From an uncultured Lachnospiraceae bacterium (lineage in GTDB: Bacteria > Bacillota > Clostridia > Lachnospirales > Lachnospiraceae): a stretch of DNA of 44,037 nt. The stretch's first letter is position 1, and each line of letters opens with the position of its first letter. The stretch covers positions 1 through 44,037 of the forward strand of contig CANOEC010000033.1 in NCBI GenBank assembly GCA_947564735.1, in the 5' to 3' direction. The notes beneath the pieces are model-generated. The model did no database searches, had not been told where the DNA came from, and saw only the letters and a list, made by a program, of their open reading frames with translations. Shown piece by piece: positions 3,591 through 21,969 of the stretch. Both the position numbers and the translations under genes were made by a program.

Positions 3591-5015
3591 ATGAAAAGTT
3601 GCCAGAAGGTTTCTGTTAGTGTGGTTGTACCAGTTTATAATGTTGAAGCTTATCTTAGAGACTGTTTAAATAGTTTGCTATCTCAAACAACTCCTTTTTT
3701 TCAAATAATTCTTGTAAATGATGGTTCAACTGATCATAGTAGAGAAGTATGCGAAGAGTATTGCAAGAAAAATTATAATATGGTGTTGGTTAATCAAGAT
3801 AATCAAGGATTATCATCGGCAAGAAATTCCGGTTTAAGATATGTCAAAGGTGATTATGTAGTATTTGTTGATTCTGATGATTATATTACGGAGGATATGA
3901 ATGAGAGCATTCAAGAATTTCTTATGAAAACAAAAGTAGATGTCCTATATTATAATGCGGATGTTGTGGATGAATTACATGGGAAATATACAGAACAGTT
4001 AATAAGAAGTGAATTCTTAAATGGCTATATCATGCAGGGAATAGAATACTTTGAAAAATGTTTTCCAGATGATTATAGATGTTCGGCATGTTTAGCTGCA
4101 TATAAAAAAGATTTTTTAGATAAAAACAATATCTTGTTTCCTGATGGATTGTATTATGAAGATAATATTTTTTTTGTAAAAACTGTTTTGAACGCTGGTT
4201 CGGTATTGTGTGTTCCAAATTGTTTTTATATTAGGCGGCTCCGAAATGATTCTATTATGACCGGAAAAGTAACGGGAAAAAAATGTTTGGATCATATTGC
4301 AATAAATATTTTAATATGGAGAGAATTGATTGACTATCCAAATAAAGATTTATATTTACAGTTTTATAAGAAATATATTTCAACTCGAATCATGTCAACT
4401 TTTAGTTTCTTGGATGGATTCTCACGTAATAAAGAGATCAACAAAGAAATGTACAGAATGATGAAAATTTTTGTAAGTATGTGGATGCCGCTTTATGATG
4501 AGGGTTCAGTGAACTGGAATGATGCGTGTGCACTGCAATTAGTGTATAATTTTTTGTCTGATGCTGCGTTGGATAGCACTGAAGATAGCCAGATGGAATG
4601 TACGCATTTGGGAAATGTTATTCATAGAATATTGGTTCAAAATTTAAGCATCCTTCCTTTAAAGAATAGGAATAAACGGGTAGGAATCTATGGAATAGGT
4701 AAACATACAAAAGTATTGTTGGAACTATATCAGCGATATATTGGCGAGATAAATTGCGAATTGTTTTTTATTGTATCAGAAAAAAAACAGGATACTTTTA
4801 TGGGAAGAGAGGTTGTAACGTGTAATGAAATACCGATAGGTTCCGACCTTGTAATTTCCAGCCGAATATATCAGAATGAAATGTTTAACACTTTATTGGA
4901 AAGTGGTATCGAAAAAGAGAAAATTATCACATTATATGTTCCGCCTTTAGATTGTACATGCGACGTGATTACGTTCGCGGAAGTTGAAGAAAAAGGACAT
5001 ATGAGAGAAGGATAA
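3591..5015 (+). CDS. GT2 glycosyltransferase with C-terminal Rossmann-like module
   Basis: The best start is the ATG at 3591, behind AGGGGAG at 3571-3577; the in-frame GTG at 3558 lies within the previous gene. Residues 1-300 or so are a GT2 catalytic domain: VSVVVPVYNVEAYL, ILVNDGSTDHS and VFVDSDDYI are all in place. A linker follows. From about residue 360 a separate small domain begins with VGIYGIGKHTKVLLE, a strand-glycine loop-helix start, and continues through FFIVSEKK and DLVISSRIYQNEM. This second domain matches, in layout, modules at the ends of eight other proteins in this cluster. Its role is unknown; binding of a nucleotide or nucleotide-sugar is a guess from the fold. The protein is 474 residues, longer than a plain GT2 because of this domain. 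Confidence 0.85.
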   Translation: MKSCQKVSVSVVVPVYNVEAYLRDCLNSLLSQTTPFFQIILVNDGSTDHSREVCEEYCKKNYNMVLVNQDNQGLSSARNSGLRYVKGDYVVFVDSDDYITEDMNESIQEFLMKTKVDVLYYNADVVDELHGKYTEQLIRSEFLNGYIMQGIEYFEKCFPDDYRCSACLAAYKKDFLDKNNILFPDGLYYEDNIFFVKTVLNAGSVLCVPNCFYIRRLRNDSIMTGKVTGKKCLDHIAINILIWRELIDYPNKDLYLQFYKKYISTRIMSTFSFLDGFSRNKEINKEMYRMMKIFVSMWMPLYDEGSVNWNDACALQLVYNFLSDAALDSTEDSQMECTHLGNVIHRILVQNLSILPLKNRNKRVGIYGIGKHTKVLLELYQRYIGEINCELFFIVSEKKQDTFMGREVVTCNEIPIGSDLVISSRIYQNEMFNTLLESGIEKEKIITLYVPPLDCTCDVITFAEVEEKGHMREG

Positions 5016-5021
5016 CAGCTT

Positions 5022-6128
5022 ATGAAGAGTAAAGTGCTATCTATCTATTTCCCTCAATTTCATACAATTCCTGAAAATGACGAGTGGTGGGGAAGTGGGT
5101 TTACAGAATGGACAAATGTAAAAAGAGGAAAACCATTTTATTATGGACATTATCAGCCAAGAGAACCTTTACATGACAATTATTATGATTTATCTGATTT
5201 AAAGGTTTTGGAAAAACATACAAGAACAGCAAGAAAGGCGGGAATTAGCGGCTTTTGTTTTTATCATTATTATTTCCGAGGCAAAACATTGTTAGAAAAG
5301 CCTATTGAAAATTATAGAGATAATTCAAAGGAGCAGTTTCCATACTGCCTGATATGGGCAAATCAATCTTGGGGGCGTACGTGGTATAGATCCTCCATAG
5401 GGAATAAAGTACTTCTAAAACAGATATATGGTGATGAAGATGATTGGAGAAGGCAGTTTTATTATTTGTTAGATTTTTTTAGAGACAGCCGGTATATAAA
5501 AATTGATAATAAACCATTGTATATTATTTATATTCCTCAAGATATAAAATGCAGGAAGAAAATGTTTGCTTTGTGGCAGCAGTTGGCGAGAAAACATGGT
5601 TTTGACGGATTATTTCTGGTTGCCATGAATACATCATATGGAAAAGACAATAATTGTAGTCTTTATGACGCTTTTTTGGATTTTGAGCCGCTGAGATCGT
5701 TTGAAAATGATAAAACGTGGAGAAAACGTTTGGACGATTGGAAAAGCCGACATATTGATATTGTTGATAGAAATCGTTGCAGTTGGCTAAATAGAATTGG
5801 GACAAGGAACACCTATTCGTATGCATATCTTTGCAAAGCGATAGAGCGGGAAGCAAAACGGAGTAGTGATAAGACATTACCCGGTATTTTTCCGGGATGG
5901 GATAATACATCAAGGAAAGATGAAGCAGGTATTATCGTTAGTGGAAGTACTCCTGAAAAATTTAAAAGACATCTGATTAATATGTTAAAGATAGCTGATA
6001 GGCATTCTAAGAAATTTATTTTTTTGAATGCATGGAATGAGTGGTCGGAAGGTGCATATGTCGAGGCAGATAAAAGATATGGTTATGCATATTTACGTGC
6101 TATGCAGGATGTATTGGAGCGTAGATGA
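5022..6128 (+). CDS. WbsX-like / GH99-like glycan protein
   Basis: This 368-residue protein begins with KVLSIYFPQFHTIPENDEWW and continues GSGFTEWTNV, a signature of the WbsX family (Glyco_tran_WbsX), which has a GH99-like TIM-barrel fold. Other conserved family segments are GFCFYHYYF near residue 77, WANQSWGRTW near residue 112 and FLNAWNEWSEGAYVE near residue 338. Members sit in O-antigen and capsule clusters and are annotated either as glycosyltransferases or as glycoside-hydrolase-like proteins; the reaction is not settled. It starts 7 bp after the preceding gene, which suggests cotranscription. There is no signal peptide, so a cytoplasmic location is expected. Confidence 0.85.
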   Translation: MKSKVLSIYFPQFHTIPENDEWWGSGFTEWTNVKRGKPFYYGHYQPREPLHDNYYDLSDLKVLEKHTRTARKAGISGFCFYHYYFRGKTLLEKPIENYRDNSKEQFPYCLIWANQSWGRTWYRSSIGNKVLLKQIYGDEDDWRRQFYYLLDFFRDSRYIKIDNKPLYIIYIPQDIKCRKKMFALWQQLARKHGFDGLFLVAMNTSYGKDNNCSLYDAFLDFEPLRSFENDKTWRKRLDDWKSRHIDIVDRNRCSWLNRIGTRNTYSYAYLCKAIEREAKRSSDKTLPGIFPGWDNTSRKDEAGIIVSGSTPEKFKRHLINMLKIADRHSKKFIFLNAWNEWSEGAYVEADKRYGYAYLRAMQDVLERR

Positions 6129-6161
6129 AATTAGTACGCGTAATAGGTATTGGGAGTGGTT

Positions 6162-7046
6162 ATGCAAAAAAAAGTAGGAGTTATTTTGGTAAATTATAAT
6201 GGTGAGAAGTATATTGCGAACTGTGTAAATAGCTTGTTGAATCAAACTTATCACAATGTTGCAATTTTATTTTGGGACAATCATTCTAACGATAGTTCGC
6301 TAGAGATTATAAGGAAAACATATCCTCAGATTCATTTAGTGGAAAGTAAACATAATTATGGTTATGCAAAAGCTAATAACTTAGCGGTGAAAAAGATATT
6401 TCAGATGGAAGAGGATTTGGAGTATGTTTTGTTGCTTAATGTGGACACAGTAGCAGAACCATTATTGATAGAAAGTTTGTTGAGTAAAGCAGACAAGAAT
6501 ACGGTTACTACGGCTCATATTTATTTAGACAGATACGGTAAGCAAATCTGGTATGCTGGTGGAGAGTTACAGCTTGATATCGGTAACTCGGATCATTTGT
6601 ATCTGAAAAATTGTACAGAAGTACAAAGAGTTAGTTTTGTAAGTGGTTGCTGTATGCTAATTCATAAAGATATTATAAAAAGATATGGTTTGTTTGATCC
6701 AGCTTATTACATGTATTATGAAGACACAGATTTATGTATGAGATGGTACATGCATGGGGTGAATATGTATTATGTACCGGAAGCGAGACTATGGCATAAA
6801 GTTGGCGGAAGCATTGGAGGCGTGAGAAACCCGGCTAAAGAATACTATATGGTCAGAAATAGACTTTACTTTATAAATAAATACAAGAGATATATAAAAG
6901 TACGAAAGCTTTTCATACTATGGACAATGTTAAGAGATAGTTTATTAGATTCTTCGGAGTACAGTGGCAGCTTGATAAAGGCAGCCGGTTTGGGTATATT
7001 GGATTTCTATCTTAAGAATATGGGTTCAATGAAGCATAAGTTGTGA
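6162..7046 (+). CDS. GT2 glycosyltransferase, rhamnosyltransferase (WbbL-like) type
   Basis: The preferred start is ATG 6162 behind GGGAGTGG at 6152-6159, giving 294 residues; a TTG at 6150 is less likely. VGVILVNYNGEKYIANCV opens the domain, LFWDNHSNDSS is the nucleotide-binding segment and LLLNVDTV carries the acidic motif. The segment VSFVSGCCMLIHKDI followed by YYMYYEDTDLCMRW is characteristic of the GT2 subgroup that includes WbbL-type rhamnosyltransferases. The donor may therefore be dTDP-L-rhamnose, but no rhamnose biosynthesis genes are in the window. It is the last gene before a 267-bp break that contains a promoter. Confidence 0.85.
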   Translation: MQKKVGVILVNYNGEKYIANCVNSLLNQTYHNVAILFWDNHSNDSSLEIIRKTYPQIHLVESKHNYGYAKANNLAVKKIFQMEEDLEYVLLLNVDTVAEPLLIESLLSKADKNTVTTAHIYLDRYGKQIWYAGGELQLDIGNSDHLYLKNCTEVQRVSFVSGCCMLIHKDIIKRYGLFDPAYYMYYEDTDLCMRWYMHGVNMYYVPEARLWHKVGGSIGGVRNPAKEYYMVRNRLYFINKYKRYIKVRKLFILWTMLRDSLLDSSEYSGSLIKAAGLGILDFYLKNMGSMKHKL

Positions 7047-7147
7047 CTCAAAAGGAATAATGTCTCTTGGAACAGGAATTAAGATGGGGAAAATTAACTT
7101 GTTGAAAGGATTTTTGAACGTCGTAAACATTGCAGGCACCAATTAAG

Positions 7148-7176
7148 TTGTTGATAGTTTTATTATCTGTTATAAT
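7148..7176 (+). promoter_or_regulatory. Promoter with extended -10, upstream of the small module protein
   Basis: TTGTTG at 7148-7153 and TATAAT at 7171-7176 are separated by exactly 17 bp, and TG at 7168-7169 forms an extended -10. This is the best promoter match in the cluster. Transcription would start near 7183 and leave a leader of about 130 nt before the ATG at 7314. It probably drives the second half of the glycan cluster. The rest of the 7047-7313 gap shows only a weak 28-codon frame at 7060-7146, which I do not regard as a gene. Confidence 0.65.
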
Positions 7177-7313
7177 TTATTATAAATATATGGGATAATA
7201 GCCACATAGATATTAGTACGGCAAGTTTTAGCGTGATTAATGAAGTATTATAAACAATATGCGGGTTGTTAAGAAACAACTTTATGACATATAAAAAATA
7301 GGAGGGCAAAGAT

Positions 7314-7790
7314 ATGAAAAAAGGAATAATAGGAGCAATGTCATTGTTGGTAGGTGCAGCGGGAGGAGCCATCGGAGTAGGAAAGGTCACGGGGACGAAA
7401 ATAAATGACAAACAGCAGTTGGCAAATAAACATTTGGCGTTATTTCTTATGATGAACCAATGGGTTAAGGTAAAACAGGAAGGAAAGAGGCTGTCATCAT
7501 ATTTTGAGCGGAATGGATATGGAAAAATTGCCATATATGGTATGAGTTATGCCGGAGAGACATTAATAGAGGAATTAAAAGGCAGTAATGTTGAAGTTGC
7601 TTATGGAATTGATCAAAATGCGGATACAATTTATGCAGATGTAGATATTGTTACGATGGAAGACCATTTGGATGACGTAGATGCTATTGTGGTAACTGCA
7701 ATTACTTTCTTTGACGAAATAGAAGAGAAGTTAAGTGCAAAGGTAAGTTGTCCGATTATTTCATTAGAGGATATTTTGTATGAGGTTTAG
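7314..7790 (+). CDS. Small membrane-anchored protein consisting of the recurrent Rossmann-like module
   Basis: I do not recognise this 158-residue protein as a named family. Residues 4-26 are hydrophobic and glycine/alanine-rich (IIGAMSLLVGAAGGAIGVG), consistent with a membrane anchor or uncleaved signal. A helical linker follows. From about residue 69 it reads KIAIYGMSYAGETLIEEL, VAYGIDQNA, then DAIVVTAITFFDEIEEKL. This is the same strand-glycine loop-helix plan seen at the ends of eight enzymes in the cluster. No catalytic domain is attached. The start is secure, with GGAGGG at 7301-7306 before the ATG. It has its own promoter. A scaffold or regulatory role for the modular enzymes is possible but unproven. 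Confidence 0.75.
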   Translation: MKKGIIGAMSLLVGAAGGAIGVGKVTGTKINDKQQLANKHLALFLMMNQWVKVKQEGKRLSSYFERNGYGKIAIYGMSYAGETLIEELKGSNVEVAYGIDQNADTIYADVDIVTMEDHLDDVDAIVVTAITFFDEIEEKLSAKVSCPIISLEDILYEV

Positions 7791-7803
7791 ATTAGTGCTC
7801 CTA

Positions 7804-7830
7804 ATAATCCCCGGCATAGCTGGGGATTAT
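7804..7830 (+). other. Strong 12-bp hairpin between two cluster genes
   Basis: ATAATCCCCGGC and GCTGGGGATTAT pair over 12 bp with one G-T wobble around the triloop ATA. It lies just after the stop codon of the small module protein. No T-run follows on the + strand, so it is not a standard intrinsic terminator. It may stabilise the 3' end of the upstream message or cause partial termination. Confidence 0.5.
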
Positions 7831-7901
7831 AAAGTGTAGTAGAAAGGGTTGGGCACTGGATAATATAATCTCTTTTACAGTGACAAAACGGAGGCATTTG
7901 T

Positions 7902-8924
7902 ATGATACAAAAAAGAAACAAAGTAATCTATATCCCATACAGTAACAAAAATGGCGATGTCTATGAGTACCCCGTCAATATGATTAAAATTCTTGAGAAG
8001 AAATATGATGTGTGTGGGCAATTGGCGGAGCCTAACAATGTGGTTGACATGATGAAAACTAAGGCCGTTTTTTTAAATTGGGTAGAAGATAGACTGAATA
8101 GGAAGATGAAGATTCAGTTATGGATGTACAGACTGTTGGGTACAAAAGTTATATGGATTTTTCATAATAAATTTCCACATCAATCCACAGGAAAAGATAA
8201 AAAAATAGCAGAAGATATGAAATGGCTTGCAAATCATGCAAGTTATATTATTCTGCACTCCAGAAGCAGCCGGAAATATTTGCCCAATTATAATATGAAT
8301 AGTCATAAGACGGTATATGTTCCACTGATAATGTTTGAGAAGAGGGTTTCTTTAGAGCATACATCCGAATTACGTCACAAATATAATATTAAAGAGACGG
8401 ACTTTGTATTTACTATGTTCGGGATGATTAAACAGTATAAGCGGTATGAGGAAACGATAAAGGCGTTTAAAAAACTGGGACTTCACGGTGCGAAATTGAT
8501 ATTGGCGGGTAATAGTAATGAGGCTGAGTATATCAAATCTTTAAAGAACTTATGTCGTGATTGCGAAGACATTATTCTGGATATCAGGTATATACCTAAT
8601 ATAACGTTAAATGCCATAATTGAAATTTCGGATGTAATTGTGGCTCCATATGTTAATAGAAGCAGTATGAATTCAGCCGTAATGATACAGGCATTTTCAA
8701 ATGCTCGGACAGTTATCATACCTAATATATGTATGGCAAGAGATATGGCATCACAGGGTTTTTTTTATGGATATAAGACGAGCTTGGAAAGAGTGATGTT
8801 AAAGGCGTTCAAAAATGGGAAAGATGCAAACAGGGAAATGGGGAACAGGGCGTATAAATATGTTGCGGAACATAACAATGAAGAGGTTGTAAGCGCTAAA
8901 TTGTACTCGATACTGGAACGCTAA
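7902..8924 (+). CDS. GT-B fold glycosyltransferase (GT4-like)
   Basis: The protein has 340 residues. Its C-terminal half contains FVFTMFGMIKQYKRYEETIK and AKLILAGNSNEAEYI, the usual start of the GT4 donor-binding domain, then DVIVAPYVNRSSMNSAVMIQ. In place of the classical E-x7-E the region reads RSSMNSAVMIQAF, so the first acidic residue is missing; this suggests a divergent subfamily. The N-terminal half is acceptor-binding, with KVIWIFHNKFPH. The ATG at 7902 has a CGGAGG site at 7890-7895. A 111-bp gap containing a strong hairpin precedes it. The likely job is sugar transfer to the glycan from a nucleotide-sugar of unknown identity. Confidence 0.8.
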   Translation: MIQKRNKVIYIPYSNKNGDVYEYPVNMIKILEKKYDVCGQLAEPNNVVDMMKTKAVFLNWVEDRLNRKMKIQLWMYRLLGTKVIWIFHNKFPHQSTGKDKKIAEDMKWLANHASYIILHSRSSRKYLPNYNMNSHKTVYVPLIMFEKRVSLEHTSELRHKYNIKETDFVFTMFGMIKQYKRYEETIKAFKKLGLHGAKLILAGNSNEAEYIKSLKNLCRDCEDIILDIRYIPNITLNAIIEISDVIVAPYVNRSSMNSAVMIQAFSNARTVIIPNICMARDMASQGFFYGYKTSLERVMLKAFKNGKDANREMGNRAYKYVAEHNNEEVVSAKLYSILER

Positions 8925-8975
8925 GGGATAAGAAGAGACTAAGCTTATTTTTTAGAAATCAGTGGGGAGATAAGA

Positions 8976-10268
8976 ATGAGAAAAGTACGAATTTTATTGT
9001 ATCATCGTGTAGAATATTTAAATGATGATTTTAATATGCAGGCTGTTACACCGGATAATTTTGAGAAGCATATGAAATTTTTACATGACCATTATGATGT
9101 GATAAGCTTGAGTGTTCCTATGGAAGAGTGGTTTAGTGGTGGAGAGAGGGATGCTGTAATAATTACTTTTGATGATGGTTATTATGATTTTTTATATAAT
9201 GCAGTCCCTGTTTTGGAAAAATACCATATGCCAGCAACGATATTTGTAGCAACTGGTAACGTCAATTCGGGATGTGAGAATTGGACGGATAGTATTTTGA
9301 GGATTATTTTTTCAAATAACAAACAAAAAGATTTTTTCACTTTTGATAACCAGTTTTATCAGGGAAAGTGTCCAACGAGGAATTTTAAAGAGAAATACGA
9401 TTTCTATCAAATGATTAGAAGAATTTTTCTCGTGTCCACTGCGGAGGAAAAAAGAAGATATGAAAGTGAGTTATTAGACTGGGCGGGTTTAGAAAGAGAA
9501 GGGCGAAAAGACAGAAGAATTATGACTTCAGAGGAAATACGAAGGACAGCGGAGAAAGAAGGAATTTCCATAGGAGCACATACCGTTACGCATGCTGCTT
9601 TAAAGACATTAAGTGTCTCTGAGCAGCGAAGCGAAATATTAGAATCAAAAAAATTTTTGGAACAAATTATTGGAAAAGAAGTGACGCTGTTTTCCTATCC
9701 GTTTGGAACGAGAGATGAATATTCGGATGATACCGTGCAGTTAGTGAAGGAAATTGGATTTGAGAAAGCTGTGGTTGCATATCCGGCGGCTCTGATTGAA
9801 GAGACAAATATTTATGAGTTGAACCGATTTGCAGTAAAAAATTATGATGAGAAAGATTTTGCTGAATATATTGAGAATGTTGTGTTTGGGAACGAAAAAG
9901 GAATGGAAATTGAAGACACAAGAGGTTTGTGTACCCCAATTAATTATGTTGGAAAATTAGAGGAAGACTTTAATGTGTTACATTCCGATTTGCCTTTAAT
10001 CGTGTGGGGAACTGGTTATTGGGGAAAAAGGTTATATTCGGAATTATCAATGTTGAGGATAGGGCATCGAATGATAGCTTTTGGTGATAACAATCCGAAT
10101 AAATGTGGTGATAAAATCAGTAACATTCCGATTAAATCATTAAAAGAAATAAAGAGAATACAAGAGAGAGAAAACTGTCTTATTTTGCTTAGGGGAAAAT
10201 ATGATTTTGAAGTTTGTAGGAGATTAATTGAGAGTGGATTGAAATACATCCATATAATTCAAATGTAA
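8976..10268 (+). CDS. Polysaccharide deacetylase (CE4/NodB domain) with C-terminal Rossmann-like module
   Basis: Residues 1-300 or so form a NodB homology domain. The metal and catalytic motif TFDDG is at residues 64-68, the second metal motif is H202-x3-H206 (GAHTVTH), and FSYPFGTRDEYS is the third motif. CE4 enzymes remove N-acetyl groups from aminosugars in glycans. No signal peptide is evident, which fits a cytoplasmic modification step or an atypical role. From about residue 333 a second small domain begins with LIVWGTGYWGKRLYSEL, then IAFGDNNPNKCG, then NCLILLRGKYDFEVC. This is the module shared with the neighbours. The ATG follows GGGGAG at 8963-8968. At 430 residues it is longer than a simple CE4 domain. 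Confidence 0.85.
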   Translation: MRKVRILLYHRVEYLNDDFNMQAVTPDNFEKHMKFLHDHYDVISLSVPMEEWFSGGERDAVIITFDDGYYDFLYNAVPVLEKYHMPATIFVATGNVNSGCENWTDSILRIIFSNNKQKDFFTFDNQFYQGKCPTRNFKEKYDFYQMIRRIFLVSTAEEKRRYESELLDWAGLEREGRKDRRIMTSEEIRRTAEKEGISIGAHTVTHAALKTLSVSEQRSEILESKKFLEQIIGKEVTLFSYPFGTRDEYSDDTVQLVKEIGFEKAVVAYPAALIEETNIYELNRFAVKNYDEKDFAEYIENVVFGNEKGMEIEDTRGLCTPINYVGKLEEDFNVLHSDLPLIVWGTGYWGKRLYSELSMLRIGHRMIAFGDNNPNKCGDKISNIPIKSLKEIKRIQERENCLILLRGKYDFEVCRRLIESGLKYIHIIQM

Positions 10269-10278
10269 GGAGAGACTT

Positions 10279-11337
10279 ATGAAATATCTGATATGGGGGA
10301 CAGGTCCATATTGCCGTGAAAAGATAGATAGGTTCAAAGAAGATGAAATTGTTGGTTTTATTGAACGGAGAAAAACTAATTTTAGGGGAAGAGAAACAAT
10401 ACTGCCTTCTGAAATAGCAGCGGTCAATTATGATTATATTGTCGTTCTTTCCAGTCATTATCAAGAAATTGTTTTTGAAATGGTGCAAATGGGAATAGAT
10501 TGTAAAAAGATTATTCCCGGTATTAATTGCAAACCGTTTTTATTTAGTGAACTTGAATATATATCGGAGAAAAGCAGAGTCGTGGTGACGCCAGATGGAA
10601 AACTGGAATATATTTATAAAGACGATTTAACTATACAAATAGATAGTGAAGAAAGCTGGAAGCAGATTAGGAAACTTATATGTAACGAAGGGAATGCGGC
10701 TTTCATTAAAAGTATGGGTATAGGACCGGTTGGGAAAAAATATGGTTCGGATAGAGGGGGCTCAATCTGTCGCTATTATTTAGATCAATTTCTGCAGCAA
10801 CAAAAAAATGTAATCAGTGGAACGGTATTAGAGATTGGAGATAGAAATTACACCGAAAGATTTGGAACCGATTTTTCATCGTATGTCTTGCATTTTGGTG
10901 ACAGCTGCAAGGAAACAGAATTTGACTTTAAGGGTGATTTAAGAACAGGGGAAGGTATCAAAAAAGATTTTTATGACTGTATTTTATGTACGCAAGTGCT
11001 GGATTTTGTTGAAGATATAACAAATACACCCGATGTACTGATTCATTCGTTGAAGATAGGAGGCAAGTTATTAGTCAGTGTTTCTGGAATTAGTACGATA
11101 TGTAGATATGATATGGAGAAGTATGGACAGTATTGGAATTTTACGGACAAATCATTGAGGAATATGTTCACAAGAGACAATACGGAATGTGAAGTATGGA
11201 CGAAGGGGAACTGTAAAGTGGCATGTGCTTTTTTGCAGGGAATGGGTTATACTGAACTGACAGAGCAAGAACTACAGGAGACAGATGAGGATTTTCAAGT
11301 AATTATTTTTGCGTTGGTTACAAGGATAAAATCATGA
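10279..11337 (+). CDS. Rossmann-like module fused to a class I methyltransferase domain
   Basis: The 352-residue protein begins directly with the recurrent module: KYLIWGTGPYCREKI, VGFIERRK, then DYIVVLSSHYQEIVFEM. From about residue 165 a methyltransferase domain follows, with VLEIGDRNYTERF as motif I, DCILCTQVLDFVEDI as motif IV/V and LKIGGKLLVSVS as the strand after it. The layout resembles type-11 methyltransferases that modify sugars. It starts 10 bp after the deacetylase gene and is certainly cotranscribed with it. The methyl acceptor is unknown. The position of the module at the N terminus, against the C terminus in the preceding protein, is notable. Confidence 0.8.
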   Translation: MKYLIWGTGPYCREKIDRFKEDEIVGFIERRKTNFRGRETILPSEIAAVNYDYIVVLSSHYQEIVFEMVQMGIDCKKIIPGINCKPFLFSELEYISEKSRVVVTPDGKLEYIYKDDLTIQIDSEESWKQIRKLICNEGNAAFIKSMGIGPVGKKYGSDRGGSICRYYLDQFLQQQKNVISGTVLEIGDRNYTERFGTDFSSYVLHFGDSCKETEFDFKGDLRTGEGIKKDFYDCILCTQVLDFVEDITNTPDVLIHSLKIGGKLLVSVSGISTICRYDMEKYGQYWNFTDKSLRNMFTRDNTECEVWTKGNCKVACAFLQGMGYTELTEQELQETDEDFQVIIFALVTRIKS

Positions 11338-11380
11338 TTTTGGTTTGTCGAACAGCTCGATGGATAGTGTGGGAGATAAA

Positions 11381-12577
11381 ATGACAGAAGGTTTAGTTTC
11401 GGTTATAATACCCGTATATAACCGTGAGAATACAATAAAAAGGGCAATTGACAGCGTATTGTGTCAGACATACGCAAACTTAGAAGTTGTTATCGTTGAT
11501 GATGGCTCCACAGATAATACTGTAAAAATTGTGAATGAGTATGAAGATAACAGAATCAAGCTAATTTGTCAAAAAGAAAATGGCGGTGCTAATAGGGCAA
11601 GGAATATTGGAATTGCAAATTCTGGTGGAGAGTATATTGCTTTTCAGGACAGTGATGACGAATGGTTTCCGGATAAACTTCGTATTCAGATAGAGCAAAT
11701 GAAATCACATGGGTATATGGCATGTTATAGTCCTTATAATCTTTATGAAAATGAGATTGTAAGCACAGTGCCATTTTATTATGATAATGTTGATAAGTAT
11801 CAGATAAATTTGCGAAAGACTCTCATGAAGCATAATGCTATAGGGATTCCGACTTTAATTATCAGGCAAAGCGTACTTGAGTTATTAGAAAAAGAGTATT
11901 TCGATGAATATATGCCCAGATTACAGGATTATGATTTTGTGATCAGAATAGCGAAGACTGTGGAGATAGGATATGTAAATAGACCGTTAGTGAATGCCTA
12001 TAGAACTTCAAATAGTATTTCAACTGATAAAGAAGCATTATACAAAGCGATAGCCCGATTGCTAAGAAAGCATTACAACTTTTTGGATATCAAATCGTTT
12101 TTGGAAATCTTTCTTGCTTCCAATGATATTATGCTCGATGCAGACGCCGTTCTTTTAAATGGGCTGAATATGATTCAGGAAGCTCTTGATGACCTTGGCT
12201 ATAAGAAGATTAACGTGAGGAATATGTTAATTAGTTATGTTGCAAAGCAGACAAAAATCCAAAAGAACATTGAGCAGATACAAAATGATTATTATTTAGG
12301 TAAATTGTGTGATAGAGAATTTGCGATTTATGGCGCGGGTAAAGTTGGACAGGAACTATATTATAAGCTTAAAGCGAGGGGCTTGCAGCCAAGATGTTTT
12401 CTCGTTACAGCGTGTGAGAAAAGAGAACAGATAGATGGAATACCGGTGCTGTCTATTGATGAATATCATGATAAGGAAAATATGGTTCTCATTGGAATTT
12501 CAAAAGAATATCAGACGGAGCTAATAGAAAACTTACTTGATAGAAGTTACAAAGAATTTTATGTATGTTTGCTTTAA
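11381..12577 (+). CDS. GT2 glycosyltransferase with C-terminal Rossmann-like module
   Basis: The ATG at 11381 is chosen because GGGAG lies at 11371-11375; TTG 11345 and ATG 11360 are in frame but add residues ahead of the usual GT2 start. The 398-residue product has LVSVIIPVYNRENTIKRA, VIVDDGSTDNT and AFQDSDDEW, a complete GT2 catalytic set. The module begins near residue 311 with EFAIYGAGKVGQELYYKL, then CFLVTACEKREQIDG and NMVLIGISKEYQTELI. The GAGKVG loop here is the most canonical dinucleotide-like glycine motif of all the copies. The sugar donor is unknown. Confidence 0.87.
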   Translation: MTEGLVSVIIPVYNRENTIKRAIDSVLCQTYANLEVVIVDDGSTDNTVKIVNEYEDNRIKLICQKENGGANRARNIGIANSGGEYIAFQDSDDEWFPDKLRIQIEQMKSHGYMACYSPYNLYENEIVSTVPFYYDNVDKYQINLRKTLMKHNAIGIPTLIIRQSVLELLEKEYFDEYMPRLQDYDFVIRIAKTVEIGYVNRPLVNAYRTSNSISTDKEALYKAIARLLRKHYNFLDIKSFLEIFLASNDIMLDADAVLLNGLNMIQEALDDLGYKKINVRNMLISYVAKQTKIQKNIEQIQNDYYLGKLCDREFAIYGAGKVGQELYYKLKARGLQPRCFLVTACEKREQIDGIPVLSIDEYHDKENMVLIGISKEYQTELIENLLDRSYKEFYVCLL

Positions 12578-12595
12578 TAGGAGGAAGAGCAGAAA

Positions 12596-13780
12596 TTGCG
12601 AATTCAAGGAAACGAAAAGTACATAGTTTTTGGCGCAGGCAAAAGCGCTTTCGGAATGGACAAATATTTTTCACAGTATTACGATATATTGGGCTATTAC
12701 GATTCAAACGAGTCTCTTTGGGGTAAAACTTTCTGTGATAAGGAAATTTTTAGTAAATCACAGGTAATTGAACTTTGCCGGAAGTATCCAGAACATCTGT
12801 TTTTCATCGTTTCACCAGTTCATGAGAATGTTGTGACAGAGATTACAGAAATCATAAAGACAGAATTTGAAGGTAAAATCATTGATAGAGATGTACTTCA
12901 GAATGACTTAATGAACCGAAAGCACAAAGAAAACGCACAACATATTGGGGAATATCATGTCGATTTTGCAAGGCAGTCTGCGCAATGGACACAAGAACTG
13001 GTGTCAGAAGTAAGATACTGGGTTAATCGGGTTGCAAAAGAGCACAGCACATATCATGAAGAATATCTTGCCAATATCAGGAATTTGGATGTAAAGCCGG
13101 CGAAAGGCTATCATGGAGAAAAAATATTCAATTATTTAAAGGAAGGTTCAGTCCTTATGGATATCGGCTGTGGAGCTGTGTCTAGATATGGCAGTCGGCT
13201 TCCAGACGGTTCTGGAGTGAACTTGATTGCAGTTGACTCATTGGCGCATGCTTATCGGAGGATTAATGATTCTTATGCACCGGAGAATAACAAGACCGTG
13301 ATGTTTGGAATGTTTGAGTTCATGGCGGTTTTCTTTCAGAAGAATTTTGCGGATGTCATTTTGATAGAGAATGCCCTAGACCATTGTGTTGACCCACTAA
13401 AGAGTGTCATTGAATGCATGCAGATATTAAAGCCGGGAGGCATATTGCGGTTATATCATCATCGTGCGGAGGCTCTCTGGGAGGGATGTCTTGGTCTGCA
13501 TAAATGGAATATGGATTATAACGATAACAAAGATTTTATTATTTAGGATGCGGAGAACTATATCAATGTGAGCAGGCTACTTGAGGATGATGTGGAAGTA
13601 AAGGTATTTGTGGAAGACGGCGGGCAGAGAAGCAGTCAATATCTAACAGTAGAGCTTGTAAAGAAAGAAACTTATGATTATCTTAACTATATCAATTTAA
13701 TAGAAGAAAATGTGCAGTTGGGTAAGTGCATGAATAGTATGATGGCATATATGGCGGAGAACTGTTACAAATATTTTTAA
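12596..13780 (+). pseudogene. Rossmann-like module plus methyltransferase, interrupted by an in-frame TAG
   Basis: Translation probably starts at TTG 12596 with AGGAGG at 12579-12584. The first part is the recurrent module (KYIVFGAGKSAFGMDKYF, YYDSNESLWG, FFIVSPVHENVV). The second is a methyltransferase domain with VLMDIGCGAVSRYG, IENALDHCVDP and LKPGGILRLYHH. A TAG at 13544-13546 ends the frame, yet the same frame then stays open for 78 codons to 13780. The two halves together align with the paralog at 2-805. There the matching stretch reads SFFIWRKD, so the TAG most likely replaced a TGG tryptophan codon. This looks like a recent nonsense mutation or a sequencing error. If real, the truncated protein lacks its last fifth. 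Confidence 0.75.
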
Positions 13781-13813
13781 GGCTGTACAGCATGAAAAGA
13801 CAGGATACGGAAT

Positions 13814-15430
13814 GTGAATTTGATGAGTAGAAAAATTGGTGATTATTCAAAATGGCGGAACGAAACGATTTCTGCCAAAGTTGAAACGGATAAAAAATAT
13901 ATGATTTTAAGAATGGGGAATTCGCTGGTTGCCACTGCCGGATTAGGCTGGTATATCCTACATACTTTTATAGGGATTGAGATTGCTTTGGACAATGGCT
14001 ATATTCCGGTAGTGGATTGGGAAAGCTGTAAGCTTCCGCAATATCCATATGAATCCAGCAGACGGAACATCTGGGAGATATTTTTTGAGCAGCCGTGCAG
14101 AGTTGGGCTTAGAGAGGCATATGAGAGTGAAGATTACTGGCTGGTAGATGATGTCCTTGCTATCAAAGGCAGCAGGGATTTCTTTTTGAAGGACTACACG
14201 GATTTTTATGCGGTTGCAGACAGGCGTGAGCGTTTTAGAAGGTATGTTCGTTTTCATAAGGATTTTCAGAAAAAAATAGATGATGTTGTGGGTGAGATGA
14301 TAAACGGGCATAGTCTGGGAGTTTTGGTGCGGGGAACCGATTATAAGAACTTAAAGCCGATGCATCATCCGAAATGTATTCCGCTGGAAGAGACAATCAG
14401 TGCAATAGATGAATGTTTGGACAAAGGCAATTATGATACTATTTTTGTTGCCACAGAGGATCAGGAGATTCTGAATGAACTGCAGACAAAATATGGAAGT
14501 AAGTTATCTTTTTTGGATACAAGAAGATATGAACAGATAGGAAGTCAGTCTTTAAATCTTTACCGCGCAGGAGAGACAGACGGTGAATACAGAGACAGCC
14601 AATATTTATTGTCATTGGCTGTTCTGGCAAGCTGTTCTTCGATGGTACTTTCTCCCTGCGGCGGGGGTGTGGTTGCAGCGCTGCTCCATGATAATATTAT
14701 TCAGGATTACAAGTTATGTTTTGAAGGTTATTATTCACATAAGGCGTATATATTTGTCTCAAAGCTGGAAGAGGAAAAGGGAGAGCTGCTTTATTTGAAT
14801 GACCGCCCCTTGATATACTATTCGCTTAATACGTTATTCCTTATGAGAATAACAGATATTACAATTGTAACATCCGTAGCGCTTAGAGAGAAATTAGAGA
14901 CTGTTTTGTTTGATTTTGCACGTAAAGGAGTAAACATTCGATACATAGCGGACAGTGAAGGGGATGTTTGTTCTGTCTTAAAAGAAGATAGGGCATATTA
15001 TCAGAATGAGGCTGTCTGTCTGTTTTATGAAGACAATATATTTTATGGCAGTTACTTAGGGAAGGAAATGAATCAGAGGGCAAAGCAGTTTGATGGTGCG
15101 TATATATGGAAAAAGAAACCGGGGACGTTGCCAACTGACACTCATGCACTTGCAGGATGCTTTTTGTTTGATCAGAAAATAAGCACTATTGTGCAACAAT
15201 ATGCAGATAGAAACAAGGAGTTTACATTGTATGATATTATGGATGAATATGCAGAGCAGAAAAAGCTGATTTGCACAGATTTACCCAGAGGAGCCATGTG
15301 TATAGAGATTGGGGATGAAAAAACGGCGGACAGTGTATCAGTGTTGTTTCATATATTGGAAAACGAGATGGGACAAACCATAGGTGATGCCTTAAGTACA
15401 GCAGATACCTTAGCAAAAATGATTAAGTAG
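13814..15430 (+). CDS. GT23/NodZ-like fucosyltransferase-fold domain fused to a degenerate RmlA-like domain
   Basis: Residues 1-305 or so resemble the alpha-1,6-fucosyltransferase (GT23/NodZ) superfamily: NGYIPVVDWES, then NIWEIFFEQP, the donor-site motif LGVLVRGTDY near residue 170, and DTIFVATEDQEIL. From about residue 310 a second domain follows the order of glucose-1-phosphate thymidylyltransferase (RmlA): LLYLNDRPLIYYSLNTL, ITDITIVTS, EDNIFYGSYLG (DNIFYG at 407-412), ALAGCFLFDQ and PRGAMCIEIGDEKT. The catalytic glycine-rich loop GGSGTRL and the following lysine of RmlA are absent, replaced by SKLEEEKGE. The second domain is therefore probably not a working nucleotidyltransferase. The start is uncertain between GTG 13814 and ATG 13823; the ribosome binding site is weak. 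Confidence 0.7.
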   Translation: MNLMSRKIGDYSKWRNETISAKVETDKKYMILRMGNSLVATAGLGWYILHTFIGIEIALDNGYIPVVDWESCKLPQYPYESSRRNIWEIFFEQPCRVGLREAYESEDYWLVDDVLAIKGSRDFFLKDYTDFYAVADRRERFRRYVRFHKDFQKKIDDVVGEMINGHSLGVLVRGTDYKNLKPMHHPKCIPLEETISAIDECLDKGNYDTIFVATEDQEILNELQTKYGSKLSFLDTRRYEQIGSQSLNLYRAGETDGEYRDSQYLLSLAVLASCSSMVLSPCGGGVVAALLHDNIIQDYKLCFEGYYSHKAYIFVSKLEEEKGELLYLNDRPLIYYSLNTLFLMRITDITIVTSVALREKLETVLFDFARKGVNIRYIADSEGDVCSVLKEDRAYYQNEAVCLFYEDNIFYGSYLGKEMNQRAKQFDGAYIWKKKPGTLPTDTHALAGCFLFDQKISTIVQQYADRNKEFTLYDIMDEYAEQKKLICTDLPRGAMCIEIGDEKTADSVSVLFHILENEMGQTIGDALSTADTLAKMIK

Positions 15431-15470
15431 TTTTACAATGTAACTTAACCAGATTTGGATGGAGCAATAG

Positions 15471-16904
15471 ATGAAGACAGTTACCGAAATAATTATATAT
15501 GGTTCCGGGCAGAGAGGAAGAGGATTATATACATTACTCAGAGATTGTGGTATTAACGTGAAATATGTTATTGACACAAATGAAAAGAAATGGAATAGTC
15601 TTTTTTATGACATACAGATTTCTAGTCCGGATGTTCTGCGGCAGGATAATAAAACCCCCATTTGTATCGCGATTGCGAAGGAAGAGGATGCAACACAGGT
15701 GCGGAAGCGGCTATGTGAAGAATATGCAGTCGCGAAGGAGAGGGAAATTAAATATTTTGATTTGATTCGGGATTTATATCGGATAAATGAAAAGATTCAA
15801 GATGCTTTACACGGCGAGATATTATTAGGACAACCTAAGATTGTATTTGAATGTGATTATGGCTTGGGGCTGGGGGGCATTGAGGCATGGACGAAGAGCA
15901 TATGTGGGGAATTGATTTTGGCTGGGTGGGATAATATACATATCATATCCGATAGGGGCGATTATGAGATACCACCGATTTTGAAAGATAAAGTGGTGAT
16001 GCTTTCGATTGATCATGATGAAATGTTTGGAGCAAAGACAATGACTGCCATTATTCATTTCCTGCTGCAACAACTGCCTTGTGTTGTGGTTACGGGGCAG
16101 TTTTACGTGACGCTGCTGGCGGCGTGTCTTGTGCAACAGCAATATCCGGATAAAATTAGGATTGTTTCGACAATTCACTTTGGACAGGAGGCGCTATACC
16201 GACAGTATGCTTCGGTAAATAACTGTGTTGAGCGGTTCATTGGAGTAAGCAGGGAAATTACGCAGGGGCTGGCGAAGTATGGTGTAGAGGAGCATAAAAT
16301 CGGTCATATGACTTGTCCGGTGAAATGTGATGAGGTATTGGAAAGAAGTTATACGACAGATTCAAGATATCCTATCAGACTTGGATTTGCCGGCAGGGTC
16401 AATGCAAAGCAAAAAAGAATGGATTTGATTCCGACGCTTATTAGGGAACTTGATGCATGTGAGGTCAATTATTGTCTGGAAATTGCAGGAGAAGGCGACT
16501 ATATTGAAAAACTTAAAGTTTTTATCAGGTGTAATGGATTAGAGGGCAGAATCAGACTTCTTGGCAGATTGAAACGGGAGGACATCAGCGATTTTTGGAA
16601 AAAGCAGGACATATGTTTGAGTCTGTCTGACTATGAGGGCAGAAGTATTTCTATGATGGAAGCGATGGCGAATGGGGCGGTGCCTGTTGTCACTGCCACG
16701 TCGGGGGTTCGTGAAGATATAACGGATGGAGAAAACGGCTATATTGTAGAAATACAGGATATCCGTCAATTGGCAGAGCGGATAGCCTTACTGGAACGCC
16801 ATAGGGATAGACTGGCAATTATGGGGAAGAAGGCACATGACGAGATTAGTCCGAAATGTCAGATGCGGAATCATCTGCGCTACTGGGAGAAAATTTTGCA
16901 ATGA
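15471..16904 (+). CDS. Rossmann-like module fused to a GT4 glycosyltransferase
   Basis: The N terminus is the recurrent module: EIIIYGSGQRGRGLYTLL, then VKYVIDTNEKKWNSL and ICIAIAKEEDATQV. From about residue 120 a GT-B glycosyltransferase follows. VFECDYGLGLGGIEAW is the acceptor-domain glycine loop. LGFAGRVNAKQKRMDLIP near residue 304 begins the donor domain. DYEGRSISMMEAMANG carries the E-x7-E motif of GT4 enzymes and is followed by PVVTATSGVREDI. All GT4 hallmarks are intact, so the enzyme should be active. The ATG at 15471 follows GGATGGAG at 15457-15464. It is 477 residues, about 110 longer than a plain GT4. Confidence 0.88.
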   Translation: MKTVTEIIIYGSGQRGRGLYTLLRDCGINVKYVIDTNEKKWNSLFYDIQISSPDVLRQDNKTPICIAIAKEEDATQVRKRLCEEYAVAKEREIKYFDLIRDLYRINEKIQDALHGEILLGQPKIVFECDYGLGLGGIEAWTKSICGELILAGWDNIHIISDRGDYEIPPILKDKVVMLSIDHDEMFGAKTMTAIIHFLLQQLPCVVVTGQFYVTLLAACLVQQQYPDKIRIVSTIHFGQEALYRQYASVNNCVERFIGVSREITQGLAKYGVEEHKIGHMTCPVKCDEVLERSYTTDSRYPIRLGFAGRVNAKQKRMDLIPTLIRELDACEVNYCLEIAGEGDYIEKLKVFIRCNGLEGRIRLLGRLKREDISDFWKKQDICLSLSDYEGRSISMMEAMANGAVPVVTATSGVREDITDGENGYIVEIQDIRQLAERIALLERHRDRLAIMGKKAHDEISPKCQMRNHLRYWEKILQ

Positions 16905-16966
16905 TTTAAGTAGAGTATTTATGATATTTGTATTGCGGACAGGGAAGAAATGAAACGGAGCGGAAG

Positions 16967-17890
16967 ATGAAATATTTACAGAAAGAAGAATATAGCGAAC
17001 TTAGAAAAAAATACGCTGTCATCATCGGCTGGGGCGCCGGCATTGAATTTCAAAAATATTACGATCATAATATGCTGTGCTTTGACCATATGATAGATGG
17101 AGCAGGCAGAAACATCGGGAAGGTAATCAATGGCATCGCCATTGAGGGGGTGGAAGCTGTTGCAAAATATAAAGATACGGATTCTGTTCTTGTTATCATT
17201 TATCCAAATATAGAGCAGGAGATTACAATGCAGGTGTCGGCGCTTTTGCCGCAGGCGGATACGATTGTGGCGCGGTTACTAGACATAGAAGGCAGGAAAA
17301 GGACATATGCTTCTAATAGTGAAGACATGATAATGCTTGAGTACATGTTGTCCCGGTATACTGATTTTTCATACATAGACATTGGTGTATGCCATCCGGT
17401 AGTTAGAAATAATACATATCTTTTTTACGAAAAAGGATTTACGAACGGTGTATTGGTTGAACCCAATATAGAAATGTGCCGTATGGCAGCAGAGTATCGT
17501 CCGCAAAACAGAGTCGTGAATTTTGGTGCGGCTCCGGTGCCTACGGATGAGGAACTGACATACTATTATGACCCTCATCACCCGGGTTTGAACACTTTTC
17601 TGCAGGATGTGGCAGCGCAAAGAGGGATGGAACAGAATGTTAGGAAAGTTCCGATGAAAGATATCAATACCATCATTGCCGAGAATTTTGAGACATATCC
17701 CAACGTGCTCGACCTTGATACAGAGGGGATGGATTATGAGCTACTGACGCATCTTGATTTTGCAAAATATCCGATTGATGCAATTTGTGTGGAAAATGTA
17801 GAAGGAGGCAGGATTGGCAAATTGTTGCTAGAAAAGAAATATAAACTTTTAGACACAACTGAGGAAAATGAGATTTATGTTCGCGGGTAA
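16967..17890 (+). CDS. Rossmann-like module fused to an FkbM-type methyltransferase
   Basis: ATG 16967 is chosen because CGGAG and CGGAAG lie just upstream; a TTG at 16928 would add 13 residues without a good site. The module comes first: YAVIIGWGAGIEFQKYY, MIDGAGRNIGKVING, then SVLVIIYPNIEQEITM. The methyltransferase part starts near residue 120 with FSYIDIGVCHPVVRNNTYLF, then GVLVEPNIEMC, VNFGAAPVP, NVLDLDTEGMDYELL and AICVENVEG. The D-x-[ED]-G-x-[DE] motif and the order of segments fit the FkbM family. These enzymes typically O-methylate sugars or polyketides. The stretch GRNIGK recurs as GRNIGR in the next gene, so these two module copies are close relatives. Confidence 0.83.
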   Translation: MKYLQKEEYSELRKKYAVIIGWGAGIEFQKYYDHNMLCFDHMIDGAGRNIGKVINGIAIEGVEAVAKYKDTDSVLVIIYPNIEQEITMQVSALLPQADTIVARLLDIEGRKRTYASNSEDMIMLEYMLSRYTDFSYIDIGVCHPVVRNNTYLFYEKGFTNGVLVEPNIEMCRMAAEYRPQNRVVNFGAAPVPTDEELTYYYDPHHPGLNTFLQDVAAQRGMEQNVRKVPMKDINTIIAENFETYPNVLDLDTEGMDYELLTHLDFAKYPIDAICVENVEGGRIGKLLLEKKYKLLDTTEENEIYVRG

Positions 17891-17921
17891 ATGAATCTAT
17901 TTGCAGGCAGGGAGTATTGAC

Positions 17922-19475
17922 ATGGCATTAAAAAAACTCACAAAAGAAAATATCGGTGAGCTAGCGGGGAAGCAGATTTGTCTTTTTGAGAAATCTGTTT
18001 CTTATTTGGGTGAATTATGCGAGCGGTATCCTGTATTAGACAAAGTATCTTTTGTGGTGGATACGAATGGGCGTAATATAGGCAGGTTTGTATTTCAGCA
18101 TAAGAGTCTGGAAGTATTTGATTTGCAGTATCTGCAACAGGTTGACGTTCGTCAGACCGTCATCGTGATTACCAGTGATTATTACAGGGAAGCTTATGAG
18201 AAGATAAAGACTGTCCTTGCCGAACGGGCAGAGGATGCGGATATTTACTATTTTGCCAATCGGGAGACAGAGTACGAGGAGGTGTACCGTGCGTATTACG
18301 AAGACTATTCACTGCAAAATATGATTGTTTTCCGAAGCGGACCGCATGCTTCTTCTTATGTGAAAGGCATGGATTTTGCGGACAATGCAAGGGCATTGTA
18401 TGAGTATGCATTGCGGATAGGGTTAAACCGCCGCTATGAATTGGTGTGGCTGGTGAAGAATCCGGCGGAATTTGCACAGTATAAAGAGATAGAGAATGTC
18501 AGTTTTCTATCCTATGACTGGTCGGTTTCGGAAAAGAAAGCAGAGAGGGATGTTTATTATCGGGCTCTGTGTCTGGCGAAGTACCTATTTTTTACGGACG
18601 CCTATGGGTTTGCAAGAAATTGCAGAAAAGACCAGACAAGGGTTCAGCTCTGGCATGGCTGTGGCTTTAAAACAAGAGTGAATTTCGTGCGTTGTGAGGA
18701 GCGTTATGAGTATACAACAGTGATTAGCGACTTGTATGCTGATATTCACGCTGACATATACGGACTGAGAAGAAATCAGGTTCTTGTGACGGGATATGCC
18801 AAAGAGGATTGGCTTTTTCATCCTGAGAAGGCAGATATGCGAAAGCTTCGGATACCGAAAGCCAAGCAGTATCTATTCTGGCTTCCCACATTTCGCTCTA
18901 CTGAGCGGAAATTGGCACAGCTAAATGAATATGAATTGGCATCGGAAACGGGACTGCCCATTGTCAATACGCGTGAAAAAATGAAGCGGCTGAATGAAAT
19001 TTTGCGGGAAAAGGATATGATATTGCTGGTGAAACTGCATCCTTTTCAAAACAGGGAGACAGTGCATTGCGAGGACTGCAGCCATATCATATTGCTTGAA
19101 AATGAAGACCTTTTCCAGTACGACATTCCGATTAACCGTCTGCTTGGATGGGCGGATGCATTGATTAGTGACTACTCATCTGCTGCGGTGGATTATATGC
19201 TTCTGGACAGACCGATAGCGTTTATGCTGGAGGATGTGGAGGAGTACGAGCAGAGCAGAGGATTTGTTTTTGACAATATCAGGGACTGGCTTCCGGGCAG
19301 GGAGATATTTACATTTGAGGATGTTTGTGCCTTTGTAGAAGAGACGGCTAATCACTACGATGCAACTGCGGAGAAAAGGCAAAGGCTGACAGGCAGGATG
19401 CATAATTATCACGATGACCAGAGCTGTAGGAGAATATTGGAAGCGCTTGGAATCTGTCCGGCGGATAAAATCTAA
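17922..19475 (+). CDS. Rossmann-like module fused to a CDP-glycerol glycerophosphotransferase-like enzyme
   Basis: ATG 17922 is preferred over TTG 17901 because GCAGGGAG at 17906-17913 gives a normal spacing. Residues 10-115 are the recurrent module in diverged form (ICLFEKSVSYLGELC, FVVDTNGRNIGR, TVIVITSDYYREAYE); the glycine loop is lost. The rest matches the TagB/TagF family: YELVWLVKNPAEF, VQLWHGCGFKTR, VLVTGYAKEDWLF, LFWLPTFRST, LVKLHPFQNRE, and DALISDYSSAAVDYMLLDRP. Such enzymes polymerise glycerol phosphate or ribitol phosphate from the CDP-linked donor onto a wall polymer. The TarI/TarJ-like genes 2.5 kb downstream suggest a pentitol donor. It closes the glycan cluster. Confidence 0.87.
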   Translation: MALKKLTKENIGELAGKQICLFEKSVSYLGELCERYPVLDKVSFVVDTNGRNIGRFVFQHKSLEVFDLQYLQQVDVRQTVIVITSDYYREAYEKIKTVLAERAEDADIYYFANRETEYEEVYRAYYEDYSLQNMIVFRSGPHASSYVKGMDFADNARALYEYALRIGLNRRYELVWLVKNPAEFAQYKEIENVSFLSYDWSVSEKKAERDVYYRALCLAKYLFFTDAYGFARNCRKDQTRVQLWHGCGFKTRVNFVRCEERYEYTTVISDLYADIHADIYGLRRNQVLVTGYAKEDWLFHPEKADMRKLRIPKAKQYLFWLPTFRSTERKLAQLNEYELASETGLPIVNTREKMKRLNEILREKDMILLVKLHPFQNRETVHCEDCSHIILLENEDLFQYDIPINRLLGWADALISDYSSAAVDYMLLDRPIAFMLEDVEEYEQSRGFVFDNIRDWLPGREIFTFEDVCAFVEETANHYDATAEKRQRLTGRMHNYHDDQSCRRILEALGICPADKI

Positions 19476-21954: not shown

Positions 21955-21969
21955 ACGAGGGGTGATAAG

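Follow-up and report, generated by a model that had tools for sequence, protein, structure and literature searches.

Why should eight different glycan enzymes and one small membrane-anchored protein, all encoded in one surface-glycan gene island, carry the same region of about 90 residues? The question is raised by a contig of an uncultured Lachnospiraceae gut bacterium (GCA_947564735.1, contig CANOEC010000033.1), whose 44,037 nt, read on the forward strand, constitute the window analyzed here. An initial annotation of this DNA had proposed that nine proteins share one Rossmann-like region, that it lies at the C-terminus of two GT2 glycosyltransferases and a CE4 deacetylase, at the N-terminus of five other enzymes and once by itself, and that it is a common docking or ligand-sensing domain tying together the enzymes of one assembly line with the membrane-anchored copy as a hub. 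To address the first of these claims we utilized a "window-blind" profile that was built without any sequence of the window and was controlled with reversed and shuffled sequences. This profile matched eight of the nine regions at E 3e-9 or better, and the mapped copies occupy the proposed termini:

4653..4958, + strand: module copy at the C-terminus of a GT2 (ORF 3558/3591-5015); window-blind E 2.7e-13; loop YGIGKHT, acid of strand 2 replaced (FIVSE)
7314..7790 (module 7503-7787), + strand: stand-alone module protein; window-blind E 6.4e-57; model pLDDT 88.4; loop YGMSYAG, strand-2 motif GIDQN
9975..10265, + strand: module copy at the C-terminus of a CE4 polysaccharide deacetylase (ORF 8976-10268); window-blind E 9.1e-18; motifs WGTGYWG and GDNNP
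10279..10563, + strand: module copy at the N-terminus of a methyltransferase (ORF 10279-11337); window-blind E 4.7e-14
12299..12574, + strand: module copy at the C-terminus of a GT2 (ORF 11345/11381-12577); window-blind E 1.2e-20; motif YGAGKVG, acid of strand 2 replaced (LVTAC)
12596..12910, + strand: module copy at the N-terminus of a methyltransferase (ORF 12596-13546, in-frame TAG); window-blind E 9.6e-12
15471..15776, + strand: module copy at the N-terminus of a GT4 (ORF 15471-16904); window-blind E 2.4e-18; motifs YGSGQRG and VIDTN
16967..17293, + strand: module copy at the N-terminus of an FkbM-type methyltransferase (ORF 16928/16967-17890); window-blind E 3.1e-9
17922..18275, + strand: diverged module copy at the N-terminus of a TagF-like Glyphos_transf enzyme (ORF 17901/17922-19475); window-blind E 1.5e-4; DTN retained, Gly-rich loop gone

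The TagF-like copy is weak in the window-blind profile, yet it is joined to the others by a profile-profile (hhalign) E of 4e-8 and by a confident predicted model. Single-sequence pairwise hhalign comparisons among the copies were uninformative. Chance resemblance is ruled out by the window-blind profile with its controls; profile searches could also have assigned the regions to unrelated families, and the same profile together with the profile-profile comparison returned a single family instead. The nine regions are thus, firmly, copies of one homologous Rossmann-like domain of about 90 residues, as had been claimed. One of the host genes appears damaged. The reading frame of the methyltransferase ORF at 12596 goes on for 77 codons behind its TAG (13547-13780), and since the translation of this stretch is 67% identical to the end of a 398-aa relative in locus L055, the gene is probably truncated or the product of an assembly error.

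The module is a single Rossmann-like beta/alpha unit of the nucleotide-binding type. Predicted models of the stand-alone and TagF-like copies contain a beta-alpha-beta unit, the fold matches agree with the Rossmann-like superfamily, and the Gly-rich loop expected after strand 1 is present, with the TagF-like copy as the exception. Its signature reads [YFW]-G-x-G-x-x-[GA], then D-[NS]-[ND]; among filtered copies G8 is conserved in 97%, G10 in 77% and an aromatic residue (Y/F/W) before the first Gly in 94%. Profile matches among solved structures were 3nkl (4.4e-11), Rex (2.5e-10), 2g6t (1.7e-8), VioB (5.5e-7) and WbaP (5.7e-6). A Foldseek search of the PDB with both models gave no match at E<=0.001, and a further structure comparison placed 2g6t first for both, tied with Rex for one of them. 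At E<=0.01, 115 copies matched the Pfam families PglD_N (21), CoA_binding (18), C2185-like_N (13), 2-Hacid_dh_C (11) and PF08484, the C-methyltransferase C-terminal domain (6); kinship with the first and last of these had been anticipated. Nothing was matched at E<=0.01 by four sequences searched against PHROGs.

One of these relatives is not a relative but the same domain. PDB 2g6t is a Clostridium acetobutylicum protein in which the module is followed by DUF1919, and a DUF1919 protein of locus L085 both matches 2g6t across 252 residues (5e-44) and begins with C2185-like_N (PF22674; 3.6e-12). The PF22674 model catches only the 13 copies given above, and at its curated cut-off only one of the nine window proteins lies just above (the methyltransferase at 10279, 27.4 versus 27 bits). 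No function for C2185-like_N or 2g6t is recorded in the material examined, and the open-access PMC literature yielded no paper on PF22674 or C2185-like and, among the papers listed, none on one module common to the enzymes of such glycan islands.

Other relatives are distinct. PglD_N (PF17836), found in the NeuD/PglD/VioB sugar N-acetyltransferases and matched weakly here, is the substrate-binding domain of one acetyltransferase family, whereas the partners of the module vary and some have no need for a nucleotide sugar; at E<=1 neither PglD_N nor any hexapeptide family was listed for the nine window proteins. PF08484, which has a role in substrate binding, is likewise restricted to one partner family, unlike the module. 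Rex bears a DNA-binding domain, and two Rex sequences have V or I where the module has its aromatic residue before the first Gly. The window proteins contain no Rex-type DNA-binding domain (an HTH_50 match in one GT2, E 0.21, is at chance level), their partners being glycan enzymes or none, and the Rex of this genome is a separate gene (L010). The PF13727 domain of WbaP is described in the excerpted report on that enzyme as following a transmembrane bundle and preceding a single catalytic family (PMC10942596), whereas the module is mostly a terminal appendage of many enzyme families and its detection is limited to one island. No Bac_transf match at E<=1 was listed for the nine window proteins, which therefore do not have the large phosphoglycosyl transferase architecture of PF13727; all six Bac_transf matches of the genome are on other contigs.

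How widely the module is distributed was surveyed in 80 sequences (79 loci, the named ones mostly labelled Lachnospiraceae, plus the window) with 1476 ORFs. These were called simply as longest frames, and fragments therefore occur among the short "solo" ones. An iterated profile found 656 copies in 650 proteins, of which 286 are N-terminal, 205 C-terminal, 115 stand-alone, 43 internal and 7 otherwise placed; as loci L054-L073 partly overlap L074-L132, 605 copies remain after 90% filtering. Alignments hold 150 of 155 N-terminal representatives (A2), 142 of 145 C-terminal ones (A3; three were empty or too short), 77 of 81 stand-alone copies (A5) and 48 of 65 copies in a further set from which fragments were omitted (A8). 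Among the Pfam families listed, N-terminal partners (n=150) include FkbM (19), Methyltransf_11 (19), Glycos_transf_1 (11), radical SAM (11), DUF4422 (9), WcbI (7), Caps_synth (7), GT-D (5) and Glyphos_transf (5); C-terminal partners (n=142) include Glycos_transf_2 (88), RgpF (10), Glycos_transf_1 (8), WbsX (4), GT8 (3), CE4 (3) and PIG-L (2); and internal copies (n=30) include FkbM (12). The module is thus mostly C-terminal on GT2s and mostly N-terminal on methyltransferases, FkbM and TagF-like enzymes. BLAST clustering of partner regions gives 80 groups if the longer flank is used (491 regions, E 1e-8) and 65 if both flanks are used at 1e-3, 8 of the latter consisting of stand-alone ORFs only, so that the number of partner groups is 57 to 80 depending on the strictness of grouping. 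An unusual fusion occurs at L103:10845-13694, where the module is C-terminal to aldo/keto reductase, ferredoxin and TPP-enzyme matches. Of 398 genomes from across the phylum, 153 have a match at 1e-8; Rex-sized ORFs account for many of the single matches listed. Ten multi-copy genomes of other genera have their matches gathered on single contigs (G417:C2 and G220:C18 among them), and 48 proteins from such genomes have, among the families listed, the same kinds of partner. The identity and spread of the module are firm, and its presence in related clostridia suggests a common way to regulate or gather the enzymes of one pathway.

Comparison of copies on different partners indicates that the module has moved between enzymes and probably between termini. 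The strict grouping leaves 31 pairs of fused copies with different partners that reach 40% identity; 3 of them reach 45% and 1 reaches 50%, which points to few recent exchanges. These include the window methyltransferase copy at 10279 with a copy in L090 (46%), and an N-terminal with a C-terminal copy in L098 and L105 (45%). Counts from a looser grouping (450 pairs at least 40% and 18 at least 50% identical, most of them involving stand-alone ORFs) are superseded by these figures. A pair at 59% identity was rejected as a terminus swap, as both proteins fall in one component once both flanks are grouped; it may reflect fission of a three-part protein. The module also lies mid-protein in 600-660-aa proteins (L124:6412-8400, L088:4588-6393) with related shorter ORFs in L069 and L130 (L130:3150-4013), an arrangement suggestive of three-part proteins that split or fused at the module.

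A further question is whether the module does anything at all. It could be a passenger without a function of its own, or an aid to folding, in the form of a stable linker that recombination has spread within islands. The high divergence of the copies would fit, as would the fact that the module is optional within enzyme classes; in the surveyed loci it is carried by 99 of 137 GT2-like and 30 of 75 GT4-like ORFs, leaving 38 and 45 same-family ORFs without it. However, the module is present in every one of the 43 ORFs that the partner component 1 model detects, the stand-alone copy is 48-79% identical over the best segment in 58 of 59 related loci (one outlier, 30%), and ligand-edge residues are conserved inside partner components. 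We regard a functionless module as improbable.

Within its own genome the module is confined to the island as far as copies are detectable. A profile from 115 rows (A6; six window copies plus 109 hand-thinned from a random draw, 140 of 354) gave ten matches at E<=1e-5, namely eight in the window, one Rex and one 644-aa ORF, which from its length is taken for a putative FlaA1/PglF-type dehydratase. The TagF-like copy fell short of this threshold, so the profile can miss similarly diverged copies. Of 52 GT2 matches in the genome five are in the window, two of which carry the module, and none of the other 47 has a detectable one. The proposed link to one assembly line is therefore borne out, and this specificity favors a pathway-level role. 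Eight of the 17 ORFs of the island show no module.

The surroundings of these genes offer several further observations. GC content is 32-39% across the first 16 kb of the window versus 47-49% beyond 24 kb, and the low GC of the island fits horizontal acquisition. A 538-aa island ORF (13814-15430) with a weak Pfam NTP_transferase match (residues 324-416) is possibly a two-domain glycan enzyme. Directly behind the island lies a 532-aa ATPase-like ORF (19635-21233) with, by eye, a nuclease-like C-terminus, which is not a glycan gene. To the right, at 21292-23716, are ribulose-phosphate-epimerase-like and IspD/TarI-like (both by eye) and zinc-dehydrogenase (Pfam) ORFs, which together with the TagF-like enzyme suggest a polymer containing polyol phosphate.

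If the module has a function, its conservation indicates where this may reside. Outside the core, conservation is highest at the ligand-binding edge of the sheet. This edge surpasses the opposite one in the complete set and in each of the 15 partner components tested; the difference reaches permutation p<0.05 in 10 components, the exceptions being 4, 5, 7, 9 and 14. The edge positions were picked after conservation had been seen. The full set of G8, G10, a small residue at 13 and an acid at 32 is kept in 98 of 193 C-terminal, 99 of 259 N-terminal and 24 of 105 stand-alone copies. The conservation at the ligand edge suggests that most copies probably bind a nucleotide-type ligand. Binding is likely not universal, because two whole components have lost the strand-2 acid (0/24 and 0/14) and the TagF-like copy its Gly loop. 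Loss of ligand binding in the stand-alone copy owing to its G-x-S loop was considered and dropped, since PglD presumably has the same pattern. The ligand-sensing role that had been proposed is to this extent upheld as conservation of a ligand site.

What the ligand might be is best approached through the closest functional precedent, the PF13727 domain of WbaP. The excerpted report states that this domain is stabilized by UMP, UDP and UTP, that WbaP is inhibited by UMP (apparent IC50 4.1 uM), and that the domain supplies most of the dimer contacts (PMC10942596). By this analogy the putative ligand would be a uridine nucleotide, or otherwise an NDP-sugar or NAD(H). Each enzyme could then independently sense a general metabolite as feedback, either uridine nucleotides as in WbaP or NAD(H) as in Rex, which is among the nearest profile and structure relatives. 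Conservation of the ligand edge accords with such a sensor, but it would be expected beyond one island in a genome with 47 further GT2 matches, and the signature is lost in whole classes. Furthermore, CE4 and PIG-L deacetylases need no nucleotide substrate, and the presence of such partners argues against simple donor binding. Independent feedback sensing is, in our judgment, quite unlikely.

A different possibility is that the modules serve purely for docking, the Rossmann units binding each other or the membrane-anchored copy and holding the enzymes in a complex that needs no ligand. Island specificity agrees with this, as does the role of the related WbaP domain as a dimer interface in the excerpted account (PMC10942596). 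In the 59 loci around a stand-alone copy, which were selected by that gene, at least two fused copies are present in 59 and at least three in 56, and 396 of 397 fused copies share its strand. Other findings count against pure docking. Co-encoded copies are barely more alike than others (similarity 0.190 versus 0.187). Co-variation between fused copies does not exceed the null, its maximum being equalled or passed in 5 of 60 permutations, and co-variation of stand-alone with fused copies exceeds all 60 permutations but stems from one position pair. No clear co-variation code, whole-domain or pairwise, emerged from co-encoded copies. The conserved residues lie at the ligand edge, and eight ORFs of the island show no module.

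The membrane-anchored protein itself is a real conserved family within the genus. In the window it consists of an N-terminal hydrophobic segment and a W-containing stalk (one predicted helix, residues 3-55), then the module. W50, the stalk Trp, as well as Y75, G81 and D123 do not vary across 77 aligned sequences, the loop is mostly G-x-S-x-x-G with the second Gly retained in only 31 of 105 copies, and 74 of 105 have the hydrophobic segment, which speaks for docking. The stalk-plus-module unit also ends 33 longer ORFs (28 without identical ones), always C-terminally. The stand-alone model, fused forms included, matches 57 of 78 genomes of the genus at 1e-20. Four genomes of the same genus (G031, G038, G054, G063) have no match at this threshold and 8, 6, 9 and 5 module-profile matches, which may include Rex-type ones, G054 and G063 being only 89% complete. 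Of 20 multi-copy genomes from outside the genus, 15 have no match at E<=1e-10; among the five that do, a short ORF that may be the stand-alone form is present in just two, G416 (154 aa) and G259 (181 aa). Fused modules in general therefore need no membrane hub, contrary to the initial annotation. Its broader claim of a common docking or ligand-sensing domain survives in the conserved ligand site and the single assembly line; the docking half is unsupported. Docking between modules is possible, and docking as the sole function we consider unlikely. A role of the stand-alone copy as a regulator replacing missing large phosphoglycosyl transferases was also discarded, as all 25 of 25 genomes have large ones (449-529 aa ORFs).

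Our preferred reading, a tentative one with a little under even confidence, is that of a pathway-specific, ligand-responsive regulatory or association module across one assembly line. The WbaP precedent and the conservation pattern favor a response to ligand, and this is compatible with a pathway-level role. The nine regions are copies of one accessory domain, and in the mechanism that we infer most would bind a nucleotide-type small molecule. The ligand, contacts between Rossmann units of different enzymes, or both would adjust or gather the enzymes of this one pathway and so make the assembly line respond as a whole, and the membrane-anchored copy would be a local addition, common in the genus, that brings the module to the membrane. 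Against this reading, a general uridine sensor would also be useful in the other glycan genes of the genome, which have no detected module; only part of the copies keep the full loop and acid set; and co-encoded copies show almost no excess similarity and no clear co-variation.

The domain itself is known through its C2185-like_N kin, and its spread over dozens of partner groups extends beyond that model. That it constitutes a general pathway-membership tag of clostridial surface glycans, a ligand-responsive Rossmann unit on dozens of enzyme groups acting through a common signal or mutual recognition, is a wider proposition that we think somewhat unlikely. If true, the separate enzymes of an assembly line would be kept together or switched jointly. 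Many separate enzymes build bacterial surface glycans, and an accessory domain that marks an island's enzymes, glycosyltransferases as well as deacetylases and radical-SAM proteins, provides a handle on how they are coordinated, because it can be produced on its own, screened for ligands and partners, and removed from one enzyme at a time. The module would also help annotators spot members of one pathway where curated libraries mostly give no confident name.
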